Assembly (NCBI GenBank): GCA_017629215.1
Contig: JAGBXP010000019.1
Span: 1-64,000 of the forward strand
From: a bacterium
Lineage (GTDB): Bacteria; Cyanobacteriota; Vampirovibrionia; Gastranaerophilales; Gastranaerophilaceae
DNA length: 64,000 nt
Direction of reading: 5' to 3'
The position numbers and the translations under genes were made by a program. Positions 34,590 to 41,856 of the stretch are shown piece by piece (the stretch's first letter is position 1; every line of letters begins with the position of its first letter). The notes below the pieces were generated by a model. The model saw only the letters and a program-made list of their open reading frames with translations, was not told the DNA's origin and made no database searches.

Positions 34590-36575
34590 ATGGAATACAT
34601 AATATTATCAATAGCGTTATTATTTTTGTGTGCTATTTTAAATTTATTTATAAATGAGAATTGGAAGCTTAAAGTAAGTACATTCTTTGTTTTTGTATCA
34701 TCTTTATTTGCTTTAGTACCTTCCTTAAAGGTTTTAATATTTGGAACGACTTTAACTCCATTAATGTTTAATTCGCCTTTATTTGGTACGATTACTTTTT
34801 CAATGGATGTTCTTTCTGCATTATTTATTTTAATAATTTCTATATTAAGTTCTTTGGCAGTATTATATTCTAATGAATATCTTGAACCTTATTTGTCTAA
34901 GAACAGGGGTATAGCATTTCATTGTTTCTTTTTAATGTTATTAATAGCAGCGATGTATGGTGTTGTTATAGCAAGAAATGGTTTGTTTTTCTTGGTGATA
35001 TGGGAGATAATGTCTTTATCATCTTTCTTTCTTGTGTTATTTGAGGGAGAAAAGAAAGAGACTCGTAAGGCTGGTATTAAATATTTAATTTATATGCATT
35101 TATCTGTTATCTTTTTGATGACAATGTTTGCTATTCTTACTAATGTAGCTGGTAGTTTTGATTTTTCAAAATATGCTGATGTTCTTATTAAAAATTCTCA
35201 GCTTGCTAATTTAGTTTTTATTCTTGGCTTTATTGGTTTTGGAATAAAGGCAGGGTTTGTACCTTTTCATAATTGGCTACCAGAAGCTCATCCCGCTGCT
35301 CCATCTCATGTTTCAGGCATGATGTCAGCAGTGATGATAAAAACTGGAATTTATGGTATTTTAAGAGTGCTTTCAATGATAGGAGTGCCAGGTAAGACGT
35401 TATCGTATTTGGTTTTAGCAATAGCTGTGATTACTGTATTATATGGTGTTTTATATGCAATTACGCAACATGACATAAAGAAACTTTTAGCATATTCTTC
35501 AATAGAAAATATAGGAATAATTGGTTTAGGTATTGGGGTCGGAATGTTGGGTATGACCTATGGAAATACATTGGTATCAGTACTAGGTTTCAGTGGAGCA
35601 TTGTTGCATGTTTTGAACCACTCATTATTTAAAGGGTTAATGTTTTTAACAGCTGGAAGTGTTTATTTAAAAACACATACAAGAAATATTGAGTTTTTAG
35701 GAGGTTTAATCAAAAAAATGCCATATACAGGCATGATGTTTATCCTAGGTTCAGTTGCAATTTCAGGATTACCACCTTTTAATGGATTTATTAGCGAAAT
35801 TTTGATATATGCAGGCATGTTATTGGGAATTCCTGCTAGTGAAATAAGTCTTTTTATTGTTTTAATAATTTCAATAGCAGCATTAGCTCTTGCTGGAACA
35901 ATGGCAATGCTTTGCTTTTCAAAAGCTACCGGTATTACTTTTTTAGGAGAATCTCGTACAGAGAGAGTCAATAATGTTATTTCTGATGTTGGTATCACAA
36001 TGCTTTTACCAATTGGCATATTGGCATTTTGTTCGTTAATGATTGGTCTATTTCCACAATACATTATAAAATTAGTTCTTGTACCGACTATGATGTTTAT
36101 AGATGTAGAGATGATGAATGACATGTTCTATTCTGTTGTTAGTTTGACACAACATTTAAGCTGGTGTTTCTTTATATTTTTACTAATACTAATTCTTGTT
36201 ATTGCACTTCGATTAGTTATTAATAGAAAATCAAAAGAATATGTTACTTGGGGATGTGGTTATGATAGACCTAATGCTCACATGCAGTATACACCATCAT
36301 CTTTTGATAATTTGTTTGTTTCTACACTCAAGCCTTTATTTAAAAGAGTTTCTCATATTAAAAAACCTAAAGATTTATTCCCAAAAGATGCTTATTTTGA
36401 GTTAGAAATAGAGGATATTGAAGAAGCGTATATAGTTGAGCCTATTATAAAATTAGATGAAAAAATCTTATCCAAGTTTGAAAGAATACAAAATGGAAAT
36501 ATGCAGCAGTATATTTTATTTGGATTGATATTTTTAGTAGTTGCAATTGTTGGACTTATTCTATTTGGGGGTTAG
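34590..36575 (+). CDS. hyfB: HyfB-like antiporter subunit (NuoL/M family)
   Basis: 661 residues, about 16 membrane helices. The Mrp/NuoL-type core has GFGIKAGFVPFHNWLPEAHPAAPSHVSG (proton-path Lys and Pro), HDIKKLLAYSSIENIG and LLHVLNHSLFKGLMFL. The C-terminal extension has VTWGCGYDRPNAHMQYTPSSF, typical of HyfB/HycC and absent from Mrp subunits. It should form one ion-translocating module of the membrane arm. First of six tightly packed genes (3-base gap to hyfC). Length matches E. coli HyfB. Confidence 0.92.
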   Translation: MEYIILSIALLFLCAILNLFINENWKLKVSTFFVFVSSLFALVPSLKVLIFGTTLTPLMFNSPLFGTITFSMDVLSALFILIISILSSLAVLYSNEYLEPYLSKNRGIAFHCFFLMLLIAAMYGVVIARNGLFFLVIWEIMSLSSFFLVLFEGEKKETRKAGIKYLIYMHLSVIFLMTMFAILTNVAGSFDFSKYADVLIKNSQLANLVFILGFIGFGIKAGFVPFHNWLPEAHPAAPSHVSGMMSAVMIKTGIYGILRVLSMIGVPGKTLSYLVLAIAVITVLYGVLYAITQHDIKKLLAYSSIENIGIIGLGIGVGMLGMTYGNTLVSVLGFSGALLHVLNHSLFKGLMFLTAGSVYLKTHTRNIEFLGGLIKKMPYTGMMFILGSVAISGLPPFNGFISEILIYAGMLLGIPASEISLFIVLIISIAALALAGTMAMLCFSKATGITFLGESRTERVNNVISDVGITMLLPIGILAFCSLMIGLFPQYIIKLVLVPTMMFIDVEMMNDMFYSVVSLTQHLSWCFFIFLLILILVIALRLVINRKSKEYVTWGCGYDRPNAHMQYTPSSFDNLFVSTLKPLFKRVSHIKKPKDLFPKDAYFELEIEDIEEAYIVEPIIKLDEKILSKFERIQNGNMQQYILFGLIFLVVAIVGLILFGG

Positions 36576-36578
36576 GAA

Positions 36579-37496
36579 ATGTTGATTACATTGTTGAATA
36601 TATTTATTTTATTGATAGCTCCATTTCTTATGATTGGTGTAATAAAAAAGACAAAAGCTTTTTGGGCAGGTAGAAAAGGGGTAAGTATTTTTCAACCTCT
36701 TTGGGATTGTATTCGATTAATGAAAAAAACTTCTGTTTATAGTAAAACAACATCTTGGGTGTTCAGAGTTGCTCCATTAATAGGTTTTGTCTCAGTCTTG
36801 TTTGCCTCACTTTTTGTTCCATTAGCGAATGGCGAAGCTGTAATAAACTTGCAATTTTCATTTATAATTTTTGCTTATGTATTAGGTTTGGGTAAGTTTT
36901 TTGCACTCATTTCAGCTCTTGATACAGGAAGTAGTTTTGAGGGCATGGGTGCATCTCGTGAAGCTTGTTTTTCAACAATTGTTGAACCAGCGTTCTTTAT
37001 TGCACTTGCATCAATTTCTGCACTGAGCCAAAATTATACGTTTGAAAGCTTCAAATATATTTTATCAGAGGCTGGTATTTATGGATATCTATTAATTGCA
37101 CTTATGGGAGTTACTCTCTTTATAATGTTATTAATTGAAGGATGTAGAGTTCCTGTGGATGATCCTAATACCCATTTAGAATTAACAATGATTCATGAAG
37201 TTATGATTTTAGATAATTCAGGAATTGATTTGGGAATTATTACTTGGACAGCTGCTATTAAAATGTTTTTATTTGAGGCACTAATTGCAAATCTGTTGAT
37301 ACCTTTAGGATTGCCAATTATATCAACAATAGCTTTATTTTTAACTATTATAACTATTCTATCAATAATAGTAGGTACAGTAGAATCAGCTATTGCGAGG
37401 TTTAGAATGACTCATATTTTTGAGTTTATTTTTATAATGTCGTTAACAGCACTTTTAATTTTAGCACTTGTAACTTATCGTTTATATGGGAATTAA
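36579..37496 (+). CDS. hyfC: HyfC-like subunit (NuoH family)
   Basis: 305 residues, about eight membrane helices. Signatures: GRKGVSIFQPLWDCIRLMKKTS (first loop), DTGSSFEGMGASREACFSTIVEPAFF, and VPVDDPNTHLELTMIHEVMILDNSG, the acidic loop that in NuoH/HyfC contacts the peripheral arm. This subunit links electron transfer in the large/small subunits to ion movement. It begins 3 bases after hyfB and ends 3 bases before hyfE. Confidence 0.94.
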   Translation: MLITLLNIFILLIAPFLMIGVIKKTKAFWAGRKGVSIFQPLWDCIRLMKKTSVYSKTTSWVFRVAPLIGFVSVLFASLFVPLANGEAVINLQFSFIIFAYVLGLGKFFALISALDTGSSFEGMGASREACFSTIVEPAFFIALASISALSQNYTFESFKYILSEAGIYGYLLIALMGVTLFIMLLIEGCRVPVDDPNTHLELTMIHEVMILDNSGIDLGIITWTAAIKMFLFEALIANLLIPLGLPIISTIALFLTIITILSIIVGTVESAIARFRMTHIFEFIFIMSLTALLILALVTYRLYGN

Positions 37497-37499
37497 TTT

Positions 37500-38207
37500 A
37501 TGGAAAATATTTTTATAATATTACTTGGTTTATCAATGATTTACATATCATCTACAAGCAGATTATCAGCTCATGTAAATATGCTTGTAGCACAAGGTTG
37601 GTTACTTTTTTGGATTTGTTTGGCTGGTTTTGCAAAAGAGCCTTGGTTTAATTTTGCAATTTTTGCTAATAAAGAAGCTTTTATTTTAAATTCAACACAT
37701 GTTCTAGGACTATTATTTGTAATATTTGAGACTTTAGTAATTAAGGCTTACATTATACCTTGGTTTTTAAAAAAGGTTATTAAAAAGACTCATGCTCATC
37801 GAGATACAGATGCAAACATTCCTCATTTTTATTGTCTCGTAATATCTAGTTTTATTTTATTCGCAGGTTTCTTGGTAGCAAATATTGCAATCCCAGAATT
37901 TAAAAATATTAACCCAATGTATTTTGGTACATCTTTGGCCATAATTATTATAAGTTTATGGTTAATTACTATTAAACATAAGGTTTTATCAAATGTTATA
38001 GGCTTTATTACTATGGAAAATGGTATATTCTTGTTATCTTTGGCAGTAGCAAAAGAAATGCCTGTTATTGTGAATTTAGGTGTTTTATTAGACTTGTTTA
38101 TTGCAGTATTTATTTTAGGCATGCTAATTCGAGAGATTGATCACGAATTTCATGATTTAGAAGTTTCACACTTGTCAGATTTAAAGGATTATGAGTACAA
38201 TGATTAA
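37500..38207 (+). CDS. hyfE: HyfE-like subunit (NuoK-related)
   Basis: 235 residues, seven or so membrane helices. The start FIILLGLSMIYISSTSRLSAHVNMLVAQGW and the later FITMENGIFLLSLAVAKEMPVIVNLGVLLDLFIAVFILGMLI fit HyfE, the NuoK-like subunit with conserved Glu residues in membrane helices. A cytosolic loop (KKVIKKTHAHRDTDAN) lies mid-protein. It overlaps the hyfF start by 17 bases. Confidence 0.9.
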   Translation: MENIFIILLGLSMIYISSTSRLSAHVNMLVAQGWLLFWICLAGFAKEPWFNFAIFANKEAFILNSTHVLGLLFVIFETLVIKAYIIPWFLKKVIKKTHAHRDTDANIPHFYCLVISSFILFAGFLVANIAIPEFKNINPMYFGTSLAIIIISLWLITIKHKVLSNVIGFITMENGIFLLSLAVAKEMPVIVNLGVLLDLFIAVFILGMLIREIDHEFHDLEVSHLSDLKDYEYND

Positions 38208-39639
38208 TTTAGTTTTATTATTTCCGCTAGTTGCGTGTTTAATTATATATATTTTTAAAAAAGATTTTTTAAATACTTGTATGTTAAATTTATATGCAAT
38301 ATTGCATTTGATTGTTTCCATTTTTGCAATTTTAGGTAAAGATTTTTTACCAGCATGGCAATCTTGTTCATTTTTTGCAATTAATCAAAGAAATGTTTTA
38401 TTTTTAGCAATAATGTCGGTAGTATTTTTAGCTGTAGCAATTTATAACAGTGGATATTTGAAAGGTGAATCTGAAACATCACAAAAGTTAAGACATTATA
38501 CTTATATGTCTTTATTTTTTGTACTTTCAATGACTGGAGCGATATTAAGTACGAATTTAGGTGTAAGCTGGGTATTTATAGAAGGAACGACTTTAGCGAG
38601 TGCATATCTTATTTATTTTCATAAGACTAAACATTCAATTGAAGCTGCTTGGAAATATGTATTTATTTGTTCTATAGGTATTGCTTTAGCGTTTGTGGGT
38701 ATTATTCTTTTAACATTTGCAACGGGCAGTTTAAACTCGTTATATTTTGAGGATTTATATTCTAATGCAAAACTTTTTGATCCGTTTTGGCTGAAACTAT
38801 CATTTGTGTTCATTTTATTTGGAATAGGCACGAAGATGGGATTAGCTCCTGTACATTTTTGGCTTCCAGATGCACATGCAGAAGCACCATCTCCAATAAG
38901 TGCATTATTATCTGCAACTCTTTTAAACTCGGCATTTTTGATGATTTTAAATGTTTTTGGAATTATGATAAATGCTAATTGTGATACTTATGCAAGGATA
39001 ATGATGCTTGCAATGGGGTTTTTGTCTTTATTTATAACAGCTGTATTTGTTTATCATATTAATAATTATAAAAGAATGTTGGCATATTCTTCGATTGAAA
39101 ATATGGGGATTTTAATAATAGGTTTAGCATTAGGTGGAGTTGCTACTATAGCATCTATAATACATTTAATAGGACATTCTTTAATCAAAGCTTCTTTCTT
39201 TTTAACTTCAGGAAATATTTTGAAAATATATTCTACAAGAAAAATAAAATCAGTATCAGGTTTGCTTTGCATAGATAATAAAACAGCTTGGCTTTGGATT
39301 GCTTCATTAATAGGTATTGTAGCACTTCCACCATCGATACTTTTCATTAGCGAGTTTATGATAATAAAAGAAATAATTATACAAAATAAATTAATCTTAG
39401 CTATATTATTTTTCTTCCTTTTGACGATTGTTTTATATGGTTTAGCAAAAGCAATTATACGCATGTCTTTTTCAACATCACTAGATATAAAAGAGTCTGA
39501 ATTAAGGGAAGTCGCAAAAAAAATAGAATGGCCTATGTTTATGCCACAGATAGTGATGCTTTTATTTGCATTTATATTGGGTGTATACATGCCTGAATGG
39601 TTAACAATATTGATTAAAAATACTGTTTTAGGATTTTAG
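38191..39639 (+). CDS. hyfF: HyfF-like second antiporter subunit
   Basis: 482 residues, about 14 membrane helices. GIGTKMGLAPVHFWLPDAHAEAPSPISALLSATLLNSAFL and YKRMLAYSSIENMGIL then LIGHSLIKASFFLTSG mark the NuoM/N-like antiporter fold. Start at 38191 with AAAGGA two bases before ATG and coupled to the hyfE end. E. coli Hyf has a third such subunit (HyfD) that is missing here, so the membrane arm has two antiporter-like modules. Confidence 0.92.
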   Translation: MSTMINLVLLFPLVACLIIYIFKKDFLNTCMLNLYAILHLIVSIFAILGKDFLPAWQSCSFFAINQRNVLFLAIMSVVFLAVAIYNSGYLKGESETSQKLRHYTYMSLFFVLSMTGAILSTNLGVSWVFIEGTTLASAYLIYFHKTKHSIEAAWKYVFICSIGIALAFVGIILLTFATGSLNSLYFEDLYSNAKLFDPFWLKLSFVFILFGIGTKMGLAPVHFWLPDAHAEAPSPISALLSATLLNSAFLMILNVFGIMINANCDTYARIMMLAMGFLSLFITAVFVYHINNYKRMLAYSSIENMGILIIGLALGGVATIASIIHLIGHSLIKASFFLTSGNILKIYSTRKIKSVSGLLCIDNKTAWLWIASLIGIVALPPSILFISEFMIIKEIIIQNKLILAILFFFLLTIVLYGLAKAIIRMSFSTSLDIKESELREVAKKIEWPMFMPQIVMLLFAFILGVYMPEWLTILIKNTVLGF

Positions 39640-39651
39640 AGGTTAAAAAGG

Positions 39652-41115
39652 ATGAATTGGATAATTACAGAGAATAATAATAGAATAAATACAAATGATA
39701 TTCCTACAATTTCATTAGATGAAATCAAACTTGATTTTTGTAAATTAAATTTGAGATTGTTGGCATTTTTTGGAAAGCAAGAGTATGATAATGTTAGGCT
39801 TTTTGTTGTTTTATCGGATGATAAAAATGGTAAACTTTACATTACTTCTACTTTATTTGATAAGAATGTAAAAGAATATGAATCATTTACTCAATGTTAT
39901 TCTCAGTTTCATAATTTTGAACGAGAGTTTTATGAGGAATTTAAAATAAAACCATTAAACCATCCTTGGTTAAAACCTTTAAGAAAAAATCAAGATAAGT
40001 ATTCTTTTTTTGAAATGCGAGGAGATGAAGTTCATCAAGTGGCAGTAGGTCCAATTCATGCTGGAGTCATAGAACCTGGACATTTTAGATTTATGTGTCA
40101 TGGTGAAAAAGTTTATGATTTAGAAATAATGCTAGGGTATCAGCATCGTGGAGTTGAAGATGTTTTACTAAAAGGCAGTTCTAGATTTAATAATCGTTTA
40201 ATGGAATCTGTGTGTGGAGACTCAGTGATAGCATATAATATGGCTTATTCACAAAATATGGAAACTTTATCTGATACAAAAATTCCGATTAGATCTGAAA
40301 TTATACGCAGGATTGCTTTAGAAATGGAACGAATTGCTGTGCATATTGGAGATATGGGAGCAATTGCAGGTGATATTGCTTATCAGATGGGAGCTTCTAT
40401 ATTTGGGGTAACAAGAACTTTAGTTATAAATACAATGCTTGAAATTACAGGTAGTCGTTTTGGAAGAGGTTTGATTGATGTTGGTGGCGTAAATTTTGAT
40501 ATTGATGAAGCATTATCAAGCAAGATTGTTGAGATGTTAGAAGGCGTAGCAAAAACAGTTGATAGAACTACAAAAGTGATGTTAAATTCTCCAACTGTTA
40601 TTTCAAGATTAGAGAGAACTGGTGTGGTTAGTACAGAAACAGCTAAGGCTCTTGGTGCAGTTGGAATGGCTGCTAGAGCATCTGGAGTTGATATTGATTC
40701 TCGGTTTGATTTGAATGACAAATGGTATACATCGTTAAATCTTGTTAAACCATTTAAGGCTACAGGTGATGTATATTCAAGATTTAAGCTTCGTTATAAG
40801 GAGATTAAACAATCAATGAAAATTGTTAAAGCTCTTCTAACAAAGCTATCAGAAACTAAAGGTGATATAAAAATTGAGCCTAATTTAAAATTGTCAGAAA
40901 ATAGCTTTGTGATATCTGTAATAGAAGGCTGGAGAGGTGAAGTTGTTCATATCTCATTGACTGGAGCTAATGGTGAGTTGCTGAGATATAAGATAAAAGA
41001 TCCTTCATTTAATAATTGGTATATGCTTGCAATGGCAGTGAGAAATAATGGAATATCAGATTTTCCATTGTGTAACAAGAGTTTTAACCTTTCCTATTGT
41101 GGAAATGATTTATAG
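39652..41115 (+). CDS. hyfG: HyfG-like large subunit lacking the NiFe site (NuoC-NuoD fusion)
   Basis: 487 residues: NuoC-like domain (1 to about 115) fused to the large-subunit domain (about 120-487). GPIHAGVIEPGHFRF (133-147), HRGVED (165-170) and ALEMERIAVHIGDMGAIAGD (222-241) show the group 4 hydrogenase fold. Yet the N-terminal CGxC reads CGDS (Cys188, Ser191). The C-terminal DPCxxC region reads NLSYCGND (Ser481, Gly484), so three of four NiFe ligands are gone. Some other reaction or quinone-like/ferredoxin electron transfer is expected. AGAGG precedes ATG 39652. No hyp maturation genes are near. Confidence 0.92.
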   Translation: MNWIITENNNRINTNDIPTISLDEIKLDFCKLNLRLLAFFGKQEYDNVRLFVVLSDDKNGKLYITSTLFDKNVKEYESFTQCYSQFHNFEREFYEEFKIKPLNHPWLKPLRKNQDKYSFFEMRGDEVHQVAVGPIHAGVIEPGHFRFMCHGEKVYDLEIMLGYQHRGVEDVLLKGSSRFNNRLMESVCGDSVIAYNMAYSQNMETLSDTKIPIRSEIIRRIALEMERIAVHIGDMGAIAGDIAYQMGASIFGVTRTLVINTMLEITGSRFGRGLIDVGGVNFDIDEALSSKIVEMLEGVAKTVDRTTKVMLNSPTVISRLERTGVVSTETAKALGAVGMAARASGVDIDSRFDLNDKWYTSLNLVKPFKATGDVYSRFKLRYKEIKQSMKIVKALLTKLSETKGDIKIEPNLKLSENSFVISVIEGWRGEVVHISLTGANGELLRYKIKDPSFNNWYMLAMAVRNNGISDFPLCNKSFNLSYCGNDL

Positions 41116-41127
41116 AGGTTTAGAAAA

Positions 41128-41856
41128 ATGTTAGATACGCTTAAATTAAAATATTTTCAAGGTAAACAATACATACCAGATATAAAAAATGCTAGTATGA
41201 AAGCACAATTTAGAGGCTTTCCGGTAATAAAATCTGATAATTTAGATGTTACAGTTTGCCCAGTAGGTGCATTGAAATCAAGTCCGTCATCAATTGATTT
41301 AGGGAAATGTACTTTATGTGGTGCTTGTAAAGGAGCAGGTGTTGATTTTACAAATAGTTATAAATTAGCAACAACTCAAAGAGAATCTCTAATTATAACA
41401 AAGGATATGACTTTTGAGGATTATGAAAAACTAGCTATTAAATCAAGAAAAGAAATAAAAAGAGTTTTTGGAAAATCATTAAAATTAAGACAAGTCTCTG
41501 CCGGAGGCTGTAATGGCTGTGAAATGGAACTCAATGCTTGTTCTAATTGTAATTTTGATATGGGAAGATATGGTATTGATTTTGTTGCTTCTCCGAGACA
41601 TGCAGATGGTATAGTTATAACAGGACCAATTACAAAAAATATGGCTTATGCATTAGAGGATTGCTATAATTCAACCCCAGATCCTAAAATTGTTATTTTA
41701 ACTGGAGCTTGTGCAATTTCAGGTGGAGTGTTCCAAAATTCAGTAGAATTGAATCGAGAGTTCTTAGATAAGTATCCTATTGATTTATATATACCAGGCT
41801 GTCCAGTACATCCACTTACATTTATTAATGGAGTATTAGATTTTATAACAAAATAA
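41128..41856 (+). CDS. hyfI: HyfI-like small subunit fused to one-cluster ferredoxin domain
   Basis: 242 residues. N-terminal part (about 40-72): CP at Cys44 and CTLCGAC (Cys61, Cys64, Cys67). These are the ligands of one cluster of a HyfH/NuoI-type 2[4Fe-4S] ferredoxin, with the other half lost. The small-subunit domain follows: GGCNGCEME (Cys128, Cys131), GACAISGG (Cys195) and GCPVHP (Cys225), the complete ligand set of the proximal 4Fe-4S cluster. So electrons can reach the large subunit even though its NiFe site is missing. Last gene of the operon; a strong terminator follows. Confidence 0.92.
   Translation: MLDTLKLKYFQGKQYIPDIKNASMKAQFRGFPVIKSDNLDVTVCPVGALKSSPSSIDLGKCTLCGACKGAGVDFTNSYKLATTQRESLIITKDMTFEDYEKLAIKSRKEIKRVFGKSLKLRQVSAGGCNGCEMELNACSNCNFDMGRYGIDFVASPRHADGIVITGPITKNMAYALEDCYNSTPDPKIVILTGACAISGGVFQNSVELNREFLDKYPIDLYIPGCPVHPLTFINGVLDFITK

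Follow-up and report, generated by a model that had tools for sequence, protein, structure and literature searches.

A conserved Ech-hydrogenase-related complex lacking NiFe ligands in a gut lineage of the Gastranaerophilales

Ech-hydrogenase-related (Ehr) complexes were named in Geobacter (Coppi 2005, as cited in PMC13194489), and Ehr is also present in Melainabacteria (Matheus Carnevali 2019, PMC6349859). Gut Melainabacteria were reported to carry a six-subunit complex annotated as 'NiFe hydrogenase' that lacks the required hydrogen binding motifs (Di Rienzi 2013, PMC3787301), and koala Gastranaerophilales were described as having Fe-only or NiFe hydrogenases (Soo 2014). That Ehr links redox chemistry in the cytoplasm to ion translocation has been put forward in the literature as a hypothesis; a 2026 Geobacter paper terms Ehr already nonfunctional (PMC13194489), and no demonstration of Ehr function was found in the literature searched. 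In this study, a locus of this kind was analyzed at positions 34590-41856 (+ strand) of a 64,000-nucleotide stretch, hereafter the window (contig JAGBXP010000019.1, assembly GCA_017629215.1), from a gut member of the Gastranaerophilales with a genome of 1.8 Mb (97.6% complete; G000). The encoded complex is best classed as Ehr, not as a hydrogenase; this kind of system is already known and was previously reported for the lineage. Its conservation argues that the complex works in this gut lineage and that the pocket of the former NiFe site is maintained.

The former NiFe site and the family of the complex

The original prediction had recognized six adjacent genes of the HyfB, HyfC, HyfE, HyfF, HyfG and HyfI types. 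The open reading frames (ORFs), all intact and adjacent, and the family models agree. The genes and the motifs discussed below are as follows.

34590..36575, + strand: hyfB/ehrA-type antiporter-like subunit, 661 amino acids (ORF list, family models)
36579..37496, + strand: hyfC/NuoH-like membrane anchor, 305 amino acids (ORF list, family models)
37500..38207, + strand: hyfE/NuoK-like membrane subunit, 235 amino acids (ORF list, family model)
38191..39639, + strand: hyfF antiporter-like subunit, 482 amino acids (ORF list, family model)
39652..41115, + strand: hyfG/EhrL large subunit, 487 amino acids, with fused NuoC-like and NuoD-like domains and without a NiFe site
40048..40083, + strand: HyfG loop GPIHAGVIEPGH (residues 133-144), which holds Glu141
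40213..40224, + strand: HyfG L1 motif CGDS (residues 188-191), replacing CGIC
41086..41112, + strand: HyfG L2 motif NLSYCGNDL (residues 479-487), replacing DPCYSCTDR, with the stop codon directly after it
41128..41856, + strand: hyfI/EhrS small subunit, 242 amino acids, a fusion of ferredoxin and NuoB-like domains
41257..41328, + strand: HyfI Cys44, 61, 64 and 67, one ferredoxin-type [4Fe-4S] ligand set, N6b-like by motif logic
41509..41802, + strand: HyfI Cys128, 131, 195 and 225, a full proximal (N2-like) [4Fe-4S] ligand set of the hydrogenase type (CNGC...C...C)

Three of the four NiFe ligands had been predicted to be gone from HyfG, and the alignments of both motifs confirm it. CGDS lines up with CGIC of Pyrococcus furiosus MbhL and Escherichia coli HycE, and the C-terminus reads NKSFNLSYCGNDL against GSLDPCYSCTDR in HyfG and HycE of E. 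coli. The ligand positions are thus occupied by C188, S191, S481 and G484. A hidden cysteine that restores the site is ruled out, since no second CxxC is found among the six cysteines of the protein (residues 30, 82, 149, 188, 474 and 483).

Invariance was scored in 48 sequences from many phyla. Asp190, Ser481, Gly484 and Asp486 are invariant among them; C188 is itself variable, being replaced by Ala, Thr or Ser in the order, in the class and in most other relatives. The conserved polar replacement set comprises Asp190, Ser/Thr191, Ser481, Gly484, Asp486, Asn475 and Lys476, and the loss of the NiFe ligands spans the class and about 20 phyla. Because Asp190, Ser481, Gly484 and Asp486 are invariant while C188 varies, the site has been remodelled rather than merely damaged. 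Glu141, at least 90% conserved, aligns with Glu21 of MbhL, which has been described as a key residue for proton reduction in Mbh (PMC7684303). The AlphaFold2 model of HyfG (predicted local distance difference test score, pLDDT, 91) is of high confidence save at residues 135-141 and 483-487, which are the two pieces lining the old NiFe site. Its best fold match in the PDB is the large subunit of formate hydrogenlyase (7z0s_E; template modelling score 0.84).

The scan of species genomes for relatives found at least 570, and Ehr relatives were found in about 20 phyla. A tree was built with the NiFe ligand columns removed; Geomonas limicola was included and Geobacter sulfurreducens itself left out. 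A 22-row clade (support 100/98) groups the window with G. limicola and other Ehr proteins and is nested in a 38-row clade (100/99), with HyfG/HycE and MbhL outside. This placement, together with the published reports for the lineage, bears out the likeness to Ehr that had been proposed.

The loss of the known active site, and the term nonfunctional applied to Ehr of Geobacter (PMC13194489), could be taken to indicate a decaying hydrogenase without function. However, the window genes are intact, and the median ratio of nonsynonymous to synonymous substitution rates (dN/dS) of HyfG was about 0.05 in 23 pairs within the genus, indicating strong purifying selection rather than decay. Dozens of residues are invariant over the 48 sequences, the six-gene order is kept across the class, and relaxed selection was not seen in carriers. 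A pseudogene is ruled out by the dN/dS and the residue conservation, and the probability of a decaying hydrogenase is close to nil. The nonfunctional remark is at odds with the conservation found here, which was measured in the gut genus rather than in Geobacter.

Cluster ligands, membrane arm and hydrogen formation

HyfA, HyfD and HyfH had all been predicted to be missing. HyfA and HyfD are indeed absent from the window cluster, as is HyfH as a separate protein, but a HyfH-type module is present in reduced form: the N-terminal ferredoxin domain of HyfI is of this type and is joined to the NuoB-like domain (AlphaFold2 model, pLDDT 94.6). The usual pairing of ferredoxin cysteines assigns Cys44/61/64/67 to one [4Fe-4S] site. 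By comparison with NuoI, we take this to be the N6b-like site, which is nearest the proximal cluster. The N6a-like ligand set is lost in the window; relatives in the order retain both ferredoxin sets. Of 78 relatives, 73 have the entire proximal (N2-like) set, 72 the entire N6b-like set and 46 a two-cluster pattern. In the window, the outer end of the electron wire has thus been lost and the inner end retained.

The proximal loop also bears on whether the complex reduces sulfane sulfur (polysulfide) and couples this to ion pumping, as MBS does. MBS, a group 4 relative defined by biochemistry, has lost its NiFe ligands and takes electrons from ferredoxin; its catalysis depends on a three-Cys proximal cluster formed by a loop three residues shorter, and Glu21 is absent (PMC7684303). 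In the window, however, the loop aligns without a gap to that of MbhJ of Mbh, with CNGC present and four Cys kept, and HyfG has Glu141 at the Glu21 position. MbsL is also matched only weakly (E 2e-11), whereas MbhL is matched at E 3e-42. An MBS-like function is improbable.

In the membrane subunits, pump residues are 85-100% conserved in 99-112 sequences. HyfB retains Glu139, Lys220, Lys251, His340, His344 and Lys348 (94-100% conserved, 99 sequences), and HyfC retains Glu136, Glu187, Asp194, Glu201, Glu207 and Glu269. Conserved residues are likewise found in HyfE (Glu173, Asp198) and HyfF (Glu131, Lys215, Lys294, Glu303, Lys333). This conservation supports a putative ion-pumping membrane arm.

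HypD (PF01924) is absent from the window genome and from every genome of the genus, family and order searched; matches were found in seven genomes of the class only, and their HyfG lacks the Cys. All Ehr ORFs inspected stop at ...GxDL (...CGNDL in the window), whereas HycE and HyfG of E. coli continue for 32 residues past the matching Arg. This tail is the piece cut off by the maturation protease, although some hydrogenases are likewise made without a C-terminal extension. The window genome contains no [FeFe] hydrogenase. Since the ligands are lost across about 20 phyla, HypD is missing from the order, there is no tail to process and the genome lacks [FeFe] hydrogenase, it is well supported that the organism would make no H2 by known routes, as the original prediction held for this complex. 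'NiFe hydrogenase' annotations in gut Melainabacteria should not be taken as H2 production.

One family of the class (f12; L052, L053, L064-L067, L245-L254) shows a different pattern. Its HyfG has four NiFe-type Cys (CGMC, CY[AS]C) in 10/10 operon-bearing genomes and stops at the cleavage point. Its small subunit has no proximal ligand set (NAEE, GDGAC and PG[DN]P stand there), nor is there a ferredoxin domain in any of the six aligned loci. No HypD was found in the six carriers searched. Compared with the window, f12 has lost the opposite half of the site. In the tree, it is sister to the Cys-less Ehr, with a weak separating branch (91/0). An acetate-uptake-transporter-like gene adjoins its operon (L052:8700-9287, L053:11367-11951, L065:10751-11329, L067:2988-3581), and in a Geobacter evolution study the ehr and acetate symporter genes were both mutation hotspots (PMC13194489).

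Electron flow and [FeFe] hydrogenase in the genus

From this anatomy we infer a donor, an acceptor, a direction and an ion: the complex probably acts as a ferredoxin-fed ion pump whose former NiFe pocket reduces a small acceptor that is not H+ (probability about 0.55). Ferredoxin is the proposed donor because the N6b-like and N2-like ligands are retained and the genome encodes two multi-subunit 2-oxoacid:ferredoxin oxidoreductases. These enzymes would reduce ferredoxin, and its electrons would enter the fused ferredoxin domain of HyfI and pass through the proximal cluster to the acceptor, with Glu141 delivering protons to the pocket. The reaction may then shift the loop system between HyfG, HyfI and HyfC, and this movement would drive H+ or Na+ translocation via HyfB and HyfF. 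Coupling of ferredoxin or another donor to ion transport had been predicted: the transport agrees with the conserved pump residues, and ferredoxin is kept as a candidate donor.

In 65 genomes of the genus, Ehr alone was found in 33, [FeFe] hydrogenase alone in 26, both in four and neither in two, both of these being incomplete assemblies (Fisher p 1.2e-11). In an RpoB tree of 80 genomes, the [FeFe] state changes three times and every loss occurs in an Ehr-bearing lineage. The division into Fe-only and NiFe hydrogenases reported for koala Gastranaerophilales (Soo 2014) may be the same split. The near-exclusion of Ehr and [FeFe] hydrogenase within the genus is suggestive only. As a side observation, the type of PFOR follows [FeFe] hydrogenase in the genus (G000-G062): a single-chain enzyme of ~1180 amino acids occurs with it and a multi-subunit enzyme without it. 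The exception is G049, a 78%-complete assembly with the single-chain enzyme and no [FeFe] match; in G045, the other genome without Ehr or [FeFe] matches, PFOR is multi-subunit.

In the gut genus, Ehr may offer ferredoxin electrons an exit that renders hydrogenase unnecessary. In a bolder version, Ehr of gut Gastranaerophilales would be an energy-conserving, H2-free ferredoxin outlet that took over from [FeFe] hydrogenase, which was lost only beside Ehr, and its pocket (Glu141, Asp190, Ser481, Asp486, Asn475, Lys476) would reduce a small acceptor new for complex I relatives; this is conceivable but doubtful.

Several observations weigh against the ferredoxin-fed pump. The independent-pairs test for Ehr and [FeFe] hydrogenase on the RpoB tree was not significant, the exclusion amounting to about three losses, and the two occur together in other genera of the order. 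No conserved donor, acceptor or partner gene was found beside the operon in the genus or the order. At the positions of the complex I quinone residues His38 and Tyr87, HyfG has Ile140 and Gly189 in a pairwise alignment. Of the known menaquinone routes, MqnA/D and MenD were not found in the window genome; the sole MenD match is an acetolactate-synthase-like protein below the cut-off. All of the 63 genus genomes searched have a UbiA-family prenyltransferase, the window genome's copy matching MenA-type models weakly, and a quinone as the acceptor of the complex is conceivable. Finally, five relatives (L076, L077, L088, L136, L153) keep the operon with the proximal-cluster Cys replaced, for example by N/E/E/W in L088 and S/E/E/W in L153. 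Electron flow to the pocket may therefore be dispensable in places.

These relatives, together with the f12 small subunit, in which no Fe-S ligand set is recognised, would be consistent with an ion transporter or antiporter that is redox-silent or redox-gated and whose hydrogenase-like arm is a regulatory or structural module. In 25/54 Ehr loci of other phyla (e.g. L152:989-1663), hyfB is closely or immediately preceded or otherwise neighboured by a gene that joins an excisionase-type helix-turn-helix (HTH) domain to a PtsN-like EIIA(Ntr) domain. Proteins of the EIIA(Ntr) type are associated with K+ homeostasis, and this gene product is a possible regulator of Ehr. However, no such gene adjoins the window operon, the window and most relatives conserve both cluster ligand sets, and a wire shortened from its outer end would still work. 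We consider such a transporter unlikely.

The complex might also run in reverse, with the membrane ion gradient powering the energetically unfavourable reduction of ferredoxin; this was proposed for Melainabacteria from the gut and from groundwater (Di Rienzi 2013, PMC3787301). In principle the architecture allows both directions, and an 11-subunit NDH-1 lacking the NADH module (NuoABCDHIJKLMN, without NuoEFG; L154:8269-17734) is also present in the organism. However, the [FeFe] hydrogenase proposed as the consumer is absent from 33/37 Ehr-bearing genus genomes, a donor at the pocket is no better identified than an acceptor, and ferredoxin can already be reduced from 2-oxoacids by enzymes found in the genome. 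Reverse operation is therefore quite unlikely, and the ferredoxin-fed pump is preferred.

Operon context and comparison with described systems

The order B-C-E-F-G-I is found across the class. The loci compared from other lineages were the best 80 of the at least 570 relatives, from many phyla, and the order is exact in 48 of them. In one genome of the genus (G039), hyfF is broken into two ORFs by a frameshift or an assembly error (L068:9737-11167). An ArsR/SmtB-type regulator gene, mostly divergent, lies near the operon in class relatives (L045, L046, L048-L051, L066, L067). Two Ehr/Hyf-like operons lie ~3.4 kb apart on a Variovorax plasmid (L241:3851-19374), and plasmid records of Variovorax, Rhizobium, Burkholderia and Rhodococcus hold more Ehr-type operons, without functional context.

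Complex I/NDH-1 (NuoBCDHIJKLMN) shares its fold and wire (N6b, N2) with the window complex. In contrast, HyfI has CNGC instead of tandem CC, HyfG has no quinone His/Tyr, and NDH-1 is encoded separately. The near-exclusive occurrence of Ehr and [FeFe] hydrogenase in one genus and the opposite loss in the sister family f12 offer comparisons for finding the role of complex I relatives that gave up hydrogenase chemistry.

The MBS (MBX) complex of P. furiosus is similar in its partial loss of NiFe ligands, ferredoxin-type wire and ion-pumping arm; the window differs in its four-Cys proximal loop of Mbh length, in retaining Glu141 and in its subunit set. Hyc and Hyf of E. coli (formate hydrogenlyase-1 and -2, group 4 [NiFe]) have homologous subunits, and the HyfG fold is nearest to 7z0s_E. 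Unlike them, the window complex has no NiFe ligands, C-terminal tail, HyfA, HyfD or separate HyfH, and its genome has no HypD.

Ehr of G. sulfurreducens (GSU0739-0745) has the same membrane and hydrophilic subunit types as the window, with a large subunit lacking NiFe ligands and a small subunit with Fe-S ligands. It comprises seven loci including EhrA-1 (strain KN400 also has ehrA-2), one gene more than the window operon. Identity to the Geomonas Ehr proteins is about 42%; the Geomonas operon has an upstream HTH-EIIA gene, which the window operon lacks, and the ferredoxin domain of Geobacter and Geomonas Ehr has two cluster sets, against one in the window. Published Melainabacteria genomes were discussed with FeFe hydrogenases, of which the window genome has none. 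The Melainabacteria complex of Di Rienzi 2013 nevertheless agrees with that of the window in lineage, subunit number, motif loss and the 11-subunit complex I alongside.

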